The notes under the pieces were generated by a model. It did no database searches and was not told where the DNA came from. It saw only the letters and a program-made list of their open reading frames with translations. DNA of 64,000 nucleotides from Acidobacterium sp. (GTDB taxonomy: Bacteria > Acidobacteriota > Vicinamibacteria > Vicinamibacterales > UBA2999), in assembly GCA_002737365.1 (NCBI GenBank), contig NSIL01000002.1, forward strand, positions 1 through 64,000, in the 5' to 3' direction. Made by a program: the position numbers and the translations under genes. Of the stretch, positions 45,982 to 49,697 are shown one piece after another. Numbering within the stretch: position 1 is the stretch's first letter; each line of letters begins with the position of its first letter.

Positions 45982-46188
45982 CTACGCGGCGCGGGTCACG
46001 TTGCCGGCCTGGGGACCCTTGGGTCCGTCGACGATTTCGAACTCAACCGGCTGACCCTCTTCGAGGGAACGGAAGCCGGCGCCCTGAATCGCCGAGTAGT
46101 GCACGAACACATCGCTGCCGCCTTCGCGCTCGATGAAGCCGTAACCCTTGGCGTTATTGAACCACTTGACCTTGCCTGTAATACGCAT
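45982..46188 (-). CDS. Cold-shock-domain protein
   Basis: [64 protein letters not shown]. Confidence 0.95.
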
Positions 46189-46272
46189 CGTTCTATTCCT
46201 GTCTTGCAGGTGGCTCAGGCCACCGTAGTGATCGAACCCCAGTCCCATCCTGCGGATGAGCTTGAGGGCAAC

Positions 46273-46297
46273 AAAAAAGGCCGCAGCTTGCGGCCTT
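46273..46297 (-). terminator. Intrinsic terminator in the cold-shock gene leader
   Basis: On the minus strand: aaggccgca-agc-tgcggcctt followed by a T-tract; 9-bp perfect stem. Confidence 0.75.
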
Positions 46298-46324
46298 CTG
46301 GTCCGCGCAAAATGGACTGCGGCG

Positions 46325-46354
46325 ATGATACCGGTGCGTTACATTTGGTGTCAA
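46325..46354 (-). promoter_or_regulatory. Sigma70-type promoter for the cold-shock gene leader
   Basis: Minus-strand TTGACA (46354-46349), 18-bp spacer, TATCAT (46330-46325). Confidence 0.6.
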
Positions 46355-46418
46355 TTGGCAATGCGGCCGTGATTGATCAGTTTTCGATTTTTCTTCGTTT
46401 CCGGGGGAGCCTCTGTTC

Positions 46419-48032
46419 ATGCGCCGTGCAATTTTGAGTGTTTCAGACAAGACGGGCCTCGTGCCGTTCGCCCAGGCGCTGGCCGCCCGAGGCTTCGAAC
46501 TGGTGTCGACTGGAGGCACTGCCAAAGCGCTGGCCGGCGCCGGCCTGCCGGTCGTGAACGTCAGCGACGTCACTGGCTTTCCCGAGATGATGGACGGGCG
46601 CGTCAAGACGCTGCACCCGAAGATTCACGGCGGCATTCTCGCCCGCCGGCATCATCCTGAAGACCTCGCGCTGGCCGAGCAGCATGGCATTGGGATGGTC
46701 GATCTGGTCGTCGTCAATCTCTATCCGTTTGTCGAGACGGCGGCCAAGCCAGGCATTCGCTTCGATGAGGTGATTGAGCAGATCGACATCGGCGGGCCCA
46801 GCCTGGTGCGGGCCGCCGCCAAGAATTTTCGCGATGTCCTGATTGTCGTGTCGCCGAAGGACTACGACGAGGTGATCGCGGAGCTCGATCGATCCGGTGG
46901 CCCGTCGCTGGAGTTCCGCTTCGACTTGGCCCGCCGCGCCTTCGCGCACACCGGCAGCTACGACACCGCCATCGCCGGCACGCTCGACGAGGTGGTGGTT
47001 GATGGGGAGGCATTTTCAAGCCCCCAAGCCCCCAGGCCCGCAGGCCCTGTTGAACGCTTCGCCCCTGACGAACTCGCGGTCCACGCGCACAAGCTTCGCG
47101 ACCTTCGCTACGGCGAGAACCCGCACCAGCCTGCTGCGTGGTACGCGATCGATCCGCCATCAGGTCTCGGCGCGCCGGCGATTCTGCAGGGCAAGGAACT
47201 CTCGTTCACCAACCTGCTCGACCTCGACGCCGCCGCCCGCATCGTGCTCGAGTTCAGCGAGCCGACCGCCGCGGTGATCAAGCACACCAATCCGTGTGGT
47301 GTCGCGACCGGCGCGACTGTCGCCGAAGCCTACGTCCGCGCGCGCGAAGCGGATGCCCTGGCCGCCTTCGGCGGCATCATCGGCCTCAACCGCGCCATCG
47401 ACGTCGACACGGCCACGGCCATCGTCTCGACGTTCATTGAAGCCGTGGTGGCGCCGTCGGTGGATGAAGCGGCCAGGCCGATCCTCGCGAAGAAGGCCAA
47501 CCTGCGCGTGCTGGCGGCCGACTTCGGAGCACTCGGCGGCAACGAGTACCGCTCGATCCTCGGCGCCTTGCTGGTTCAGCAGCGAGATCAAGTCGTCGAA
47601 GCGCACACGCCGTGGCCGGCAGACGGCCTCAAGGTGGTGACCAAACGCCAGCCCACTGCTGAAGAATGGCAAGCGCTGCGATTTGCCTGGCGGGTGATGG
47701 CGCATGTGAAGTCGAACACCGTGATCTTCACCGACGCGTTCCGCACGTTGGCAATCGGCGCCGGCCAGATGAGCCGCGTGGATGCCGTGAAGGTCGCCAC
47801 CATGAAGGCAGCCGGATGGAAGTCCGCAGACGTGACGGCAATTCTCAAGGGTTCGGTCGCGGCGTCGGATGCGTTCTTCCCGTTCCGTGATGGTCTTGAT
47901 GCCGTGGCTGCTGCTGGTGCGACAGCGGTCGTTCAGCCGGGTGGCTCGGTGAAGGACGCGGAAGTGATCGCGGCTGCTGATGAGCACGGCCTCGCAATGG
48001 TGTTCACCGGCCGGCGACATTTTCGGCATTAG
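46419..48032 (+). CDS. purH: Bifunctional AICAR transformylase / IMP cyclohydrolase
   Basis: [37 protein letters not shown]...[39 protein letters not shown]. Confidence 0.96.
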
Positions 48033-48791: not shown

Positions 48792-49697
48792 TTGATCAGG
48801 CCGTCAGCCAAGGAGCAGTTGCACGAGCGGAACCGGTTTCGGGCCGGCTACAACTTCGCCCGGCTGATCGCGGCGAGCCTGCGGCTGGAGCCGTTCGTTC
48901 TGCCGAACGCCCATGGCGACGCGTCCATTGACTACGCCGACCCAGAGGCCGTGAAGGCACTGAATCAGGCTCTGCTCAAGGACGCCTACGACCTTGAGTG
49001 GGACCTGCCGGCCGACTACCTGTGCCCGCCAATCCCCGGGCGCAGCGAATATCTGCATCACCTCGCGGACCTGCTCGGGGTCGGCTCCGCGTCAACACCG
49101 CGGCGCACGCCCGTGGCCGTCCTGGACGTCGGCATGGGTGCCAACTGCATCTATCCGCTGATCGGCGCGCGCGAATACGGTTGGCACTTCGTCGGCACCG
49201 AGGTCGATCCAGTCGCACTGAAGTGGGCGCAGGAGCTGGTGGCGGCCAATCCGTCGGTAGCCACGTTGCTCGAGTGCCGGCTGCAGAAGTCGCCGCTTTC
49301 ATGCTTCCGCGGCGTGACCCGCGCGGATGAGACCTTCGACCTGTCGATGTGCAATCCGCCGTTTCATGAGTCGGCCGAGGCGGCCGCCGAAGGTAGCCTC
49401 CGGAAGCAGCGCAACCTGGGGACGAAGCAGTCGAAAGCGACGGCGTTGAACTTTGGCGGCCAGGCGGGTGAGCTCTGGTGTGAAGGCGGCGAGCTGGGAT
49501 TTGTCGGCCGCATGATTGTCGAGAGTGCCGAGCGACCCCAACTGTGCCGATGGTTCACGACCCTCGTCGCGAAGCGCACGCATCTGCCAGGTCTGTTCAA
49601 GCAGTTGGACGCAGTCAGCGCCGTTGACGTCCAAACGCTGGAGATGGCGCACGGCCAGAAAAAAAGCCGCATTCTGGCCTGGACGTTCCGACGTTAG
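48792..49697 (+). CDS. rlmF: 23S rRNA (adenine(1618)-N(6))-methyltransferase-like
   Basis: LHERNRFRAGYNFARLIAASLRLEPFV...VLDVGMGANCIYPLIGAREYGWHFVGTEVD...DLSMCNPPFHES; TTG start. Confidence 0.9.
   Translation: MIRPSAKEQLHERNRFRAGYNFARLIAASLRLEPFVLPNAHGDASIDYADPEAVKALNQALLKDAYDLEWDLPADYLCPPIPGRSEYLHHLADLLGVGSASTPRRTPVAVLDVGMGANCIYPLIGAREYGWHFVGTEVDPVALKWAQELVAANPSVATLLECRLQKSPLSCFRGVTRADETFDLSMCNPPFHESAEAAAEGSLRKQRNLGTKQSKATALNFGGQAGELWCEGGELGFVGRMIVESAERPQLCRWFTTLVAKRTHLPGLFKQLDAVSAVDVQTLEMAHGQKKSRILAWTFRR

Follow-up and report, generated by a model that had tools for sequence, protein, structure and literature searches.

The leaders of several cold-shock protein (csp) genes are known control regions. 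The cspA leaders of E. coli and Listeria are thermosensors (PMC8079631), E. coli cspB and cspG undergo premature Rho-dependent termination in the 5' UTR or at the start of the gene (PMC7815308), and the csp leader of Staphylococcus aureus is processed by RNase III (PMC3386247). Csp proteins themselves act at terminators. E. coli CspD, which binds to nascent RNA, increases read-through, and CspA, CspC and CspE had earlier been shown to be antiterminators (PMC9765468). The B. subtilis proteins CspB and CspD change read-through at several terminators, in most cases towards termination (PMC8307031). We found no description of an intrinsic terminator in a csp leader in the open-access literature searched.

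The window, which is the whole stretch of 64,000 nucleotides analysed here, stems from a draft genome of 3.05 Mb that is 97% complete. It contains a csp gene on the minus strand with such a terminator in its leader. From sequence comparison we propose, with a probability of roughly two in three, that this leader is a transcription attenuator whose read-through is controlled by protein or by polymerase speed, with feedback by Csp as the proposed form.

Architecture of the csp leader

The first-pass annotation had described a promoter, a 9-bp hairpin with T-tract and a cold-shock ORF starting at 46188, and this layout is confirmed in the sequence (Table 1). It had placed the hairpin 30–50 nt behind the promoter. 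The order of the two elements holds, and the distance is refined to 27 nt from the end of the -10 box to the terminator hairpin. The promoter consists of a -35 box at 46354-46349 and a -10 box at 46330-46325 with a spacer of 18 nt, agrees with the consensus in 11 of 12 positions and is the only sigma-70-like site that the promoter scan reports within 2.5 kb, where 0.2 sites are expected. Hairpin P1 starts just past the inferred transcription start at about 46318. The terminator arms are AAGGCCGCA (46297-46289) and TGCGGCCTT (46285-46277), followed by the T run at 46278-46273; read through this run, the element is AAGGCCGCA-AGC-TGCGGCCTTTTTTG (46297-46272). A terminated RNA of about 47 nt is predicted under the assumption that transcription starts about 7 nt past the -10 box.

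RNA folding places the terminator stem within the minimum-energy structure, and the complete leader of 131 nt folds more stably than its shuffles (z -3.6). In the predicted 47-nt RNA at 37 °C, P1 has a pair probability of 0.99 and the terminator one of 0.96. In the genus of the window, P1 is less certain than in other families because two folds compete there, CCGCAG/CUGCGG versus GTCC/GGAC. Past the terminator, the remaining approximately 85 nt hold two hairpins and the ribosome-binding site. An in-frame upstream start at 46248, which would give an ORF of 88 aa, was rejected: it lies inside hairpin P3, and the common start of the orthologs is 46188. The Csp protein is 100% identical across six members of the genus.

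As the first pass had also stated, there is no minus-strand gene upstream that would be in need of this terminator, because the neighbour is the divergent purH. A purH signature is found upstream at 118 of the 125 csp loci examined.

Table 1. Features of the csp leader and adjacent genes, in positions of the window
Feature	Position	Strand	Basis or detail
purH	46419..48032	+	divergent neighbour upstream of csp
sigma-70-type promoter TTGACA-N18-TATCAT	46325..46354	-	promoter scan; kept in relatives
inferred terminated leader RNA, ~47 nt	46273..46319	-	promoter and terminator positions
upstream hairpin P1, GTCC-attttgcgc-GGAC	46301..46317	-	GTCC 46317-46314, GGAC 46304-46301
intrinsic terminator: 9-bp stem, AGC loop, six-U tract	46273..46297	-	sequence, RNA folding, model R1
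post-terminator hairpin P3 of the read-through leader	46236..46268	-	folding; hairpin kept at position, not in sequence, in relatives
hairpin P4, GGTGGC-ctga-GCCACC, preceding the ribosome-binding site	46209..46224	-	folding
ribosome-binding site AGGAA, within conserved AAGnCAGGAAnAGAACG motif	46196..46200	-	sequence; relatives
gene for cold-shock-domain protein (68 aa)	45982..46188	-	Pfam CSD E=1.1e-30; ATG at 46188

Conservation of the terminator and its hairpins

Orthologs of csp were gathered from the genus, the family and the class, and their upstream regions were compared. An intrinsic terminator in csp sense is present in the 250 nt upstream of the gene in 111 of 123 orthologs of the order, and 102 of the 111 have a promoter-like site 15–115 nt ahead of it; the orthologs are related, and these counts therefore do not stand for independent events. 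Such terminators are spread over 13 of the 15 families, with the T run usually 45–66 nt past the -10 box. On the opposite strand of the same DNA, terminators are found in 3 of 123 cases. Background windows of 250 nt elsewhere in the same loci give 16 of 846, which is only a rough guide because these windows are largely coding. The U-tract is confined to the csp side, with a mean of 7.2 T in eight positions downstream versus 1.9 A in eight upstream. A bidirectional terminator that also serves purH was rejected, since the U-tract is missing on the opposite strand. The terminator of the window is absent from the list of a simple scanner, apparently since the first T residues of the run are part of the stem. 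This omission is in favour of a terminator-like sequence that arose by chance, or of a terminator that belongs to another transcript, a reading that is hardly credible given the conservation, the strand bias and the divergent purH.

By the automatic criterion, 12 of the 123 orthologs have no terminator; family f3 accounts for six of these with all of its members, and f4 for three, out of its four. The terminator is thus dispensable in some lineages. The leaders of f3 (L021, L026, L180, L200, L218, L219) and of f4 (L025, L032, L206, L207) keep the promoter and a structured leader and miss a clear U-tract; the f4 member L207 passed the criterion weakly. This suggests that in f3 and f4 intrinsic termination is lost or another mode of control is used. 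L011 has a hairpin without U-tract, and in L017 the U-tract is interrupted. In L168 (G126:C318:3475-4092), the csp leader is devoid of P1, terminator and downstream hairpins, and the promoter region runs almost straight into AAGCAGGGAAGAAGAACG-ATG, which reflects either a genuine loss or a fault in the assembly. Two records, L033 and L038, are titled Acidimicrobiia, yet their csp genes and leaders are of Vicinamibacterales type, and the titles are presumably wrong; the leader of L033 is the same as that of the genus member L004.

Alignment A4 comprises 25 sequences from nine families and leaves out f1, the family of the window. Over the whole structure 95.9% of its cells are paired, a value that none of 500 shuffles reaches, and pairing falls to about 36% when the partners are slid by one base. 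Both partners vary in five of the eight pairs of the P1 helix. For the terminator helix, all cells are paired as well, and its support is conservation and not covariation because the changes are one-sided only. Invariant columns between families are almost only those of the terminator core and the U-tract. An alignment of the leaders of relatives had been named beforehand as a check on the first-pass annotation. It finds promoter and hairpins kept and P1 covarying in nine other families, and this conservation of promoter, hairpin and terminator strongly backs the earlier suggestion of an attenuator or short leader RNA before csp.

A stand-alone small RNA should have its own promoter and terminator, and an attenuator should have its terminator between its own promoter and the coding region; both arrangements are found here. 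The short RNA could itself be the product and act in trans, as it has a strong promoter and a terminator of its own, is about 47 nt long and has no gene in between. We consider this quite unlikely. Outside the terminator core, the RNA sequence varies from family to family with the hairpin shape retained, and no unpaired seed sequence as for a stand-alone small RNA is conserved between families. Moreover, the element is invariably found immediately ahead of csp, and in the window no separate promoter for csp is recognisable between terminator and gene.

Covariance model R1 was built from A4 and contains no f1 sequence. It finds the element of the window at 46268-46323 with E=1.6e-5, the sole match at E<=0.01 in its genome of about 3 Mb. 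Across the class, 104 of 193 genomes have R1 matches, of which the strong ones are at csp leaders, and the csp leader is found in most genomes of the order. Weaker matches were rejected as further copies of the element; those that were opened are ordinary terminators in unrelated contexts. The second-best match in the window (49711-49654, minus strand; 16 bits, E=0.015) is a hairpin with T-rich tail, close to where the plus-strand ORF 48792-49697 ends, and is probably an unrelated terminator. In L278 (minus strand, G005:C140:3140-3199), from a relative in the genus, only a few bases separate a terminator-like hairpin with U-tract from a following ORF that resembles S-adenosylmethionine synthetase (metK). 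This hairpin gave no match to an Rfam riboswitch; it may terminate a transcript coming from upstream or represent a further leader terminator.

Outside the order, other Acidobacteriota have a terminator at the same position in 29 of 59 csp genes, 11 of them with a promoter-like site ahead, and other phyla in 17 of 68, six of them with such a site. Both 29/59 and 17/68 are upper limits for leader terminators, because some upstream genes are co-directional and the terminator may end those. Some of these leaders appear to have a matching layout with unrelated sequence, for example L133, L137, L143 and L152 (Acidobacteriota), L083 (Methylomirabilota) and L104 (Gemmatimonadota).

Possible relief of termination

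The arrangement is very probably a real control element that is so far undescribed, as judged from the conserved leaders, and the comparison gives good support to attenuation, with a promoter, a terminated RNA of about 47 nt and read-through to csp. We infer both termination in vivo and regulated read-through. In the proposed sequence of events, RNA polymerase would start about 7 nt past the -10 box and produce a short RNA carrying P1. The intrinsic terminator would end many transcripts at this stage. Transcripts that read through would cross the two further hairpins, reach the ribosome-binding site and yield the cold-shock protein.

An antiterminator helix could relieve termination, and the first-pass annotation had suggested the small upstream hairpin as a switching partner. 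Duplex energies in 106 leaders do not bear this out. Pairing of the upstream RNA with the 5' arm of the terminator is no better than in shuffled sequences (mean z 0.05), that of the downstream RNA with the 3' arm has a mean z of 0.15, and no antiterminator helix is conserved. A pairing of the P1 loop GGGGCGU with GUGCCCC behind the U-tract, noticed by eye in part of f1, was rejected because upstream RNA against downstream RNA has a mean z of -0.11. No leader peptide is conserved either: an SD-like site with start codon is present in only 21 of 109 leaders, and the segment is short and variable. No aptamer-like sequence is conserved in the leaders.

A temperature-responsive leader had also been considered in the first pass. 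In this reading temperature alone would refold the leader, as it does in the cspA thermosensors already cited, and in the full leader P1 and the ribosome-binding site are indeed predicted to be paired to a somewhat different extent as temperature changes. The terminator helix is nevertheless predicted at 0.95–0.97 from 4 to 45 °C, in an equilibrium prediction that does not cover kinetics. Together with the lack of an antiterminator and of any match to the Rfam cspA covariance model, at the gathering threshold or at E<=5 in the leader, this makes a thermosensor very unlikely.

The same stable helix and the lack of a conserved antiterminator would also fit a fixed brake, where the terminator lowers csp expression by a constant factor without regulation, and for which a hairpin terminator alone suffices. 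A weaker promoter would achieve the same, however, and 13 families keep both a near-consensus promoter and the terminator; P1 is in addition maintained by compensatory changes. We therefore regard an unregulated brake as rather unlikely.

Without a conserved antiterminator or leader peptide, and with no predicted effect of temperature on the terminator helix, what is left are proteins, polymerase speed or no regulation. Given the lack of a conserved antiterminator, proteins or polymerase speed most likely determine read-through, with control by a protein as the likeliest form. The published experiments put Csp proteins first among the candidates, and that Csp itself is this regulator is a good but tentative hypothesis. 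On the model of the E. coli Csps, free Csp would loosen the hairpin of the nascent leader and the polymerase would pass. Csp feedback is plausible in either direction, and its sign is uncertain. Negative autoregulation, in which Csp on the leader favours termination and the terminator caps the Csp level, would have the same anatomy as positive feedback. Loss of CspB and CspD raised read-through at two B. subtilis terminators (PMC8307031), which is in line with such a cap. The E. coli Csps work in the opposite direction, and sequence alone gives no sign; we rate negative autoregulation as rather unlikely. With similar reserve as for the Csp proposal itself, feedback of either sign could be extended to a lineage-wide circuit, in which Csp loosens or stabilises the terminator of its own leader, P1 serves as docking or timing element, and its design recurs in other Acidobacteriota, Methylomirabilota and Gemmatimonadota.

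Comparison with known csp leaders and attenuators

The E. coli and Listeria cspA thermosensors likewise control expression through a structured csp 5' leader. They act on translation by refolding with temperature, whereas the segment of about 47 nt described here ends in an intrinsic terminator. Early termination is likewise known for cspB and cspG of E. coli, there in a Rho-dependent manner, in contrast to the signature of intrinsic termination in the present leader. Classical attenuators and terminator riboswitches share the promoter-proximal terminator ahead of the gene. Unlike these, the csp leader of this lineage has no conserved antiterminator, leader peptide or aptamer-like sequence. 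No Rfam family matches the leader, which adds a structured leader absent from that collection, and this in a phylum where few studies have addressed gene regulation.

The terminators known to be controlled by Csps, those at metY-rpsO for E. coli CspA/C/E, those of sRNAs for CspD and those for B. subtilis CspB/CspD, are also intrinsic. As far as the consulted parts of the two studies describe them, they lie outside the leader of csp itself; for the leader described here, the feedback loop is a proposal. A terminator so deeply conserved in the csp leader is an obvious candidate for a natural target of Csp proteins.
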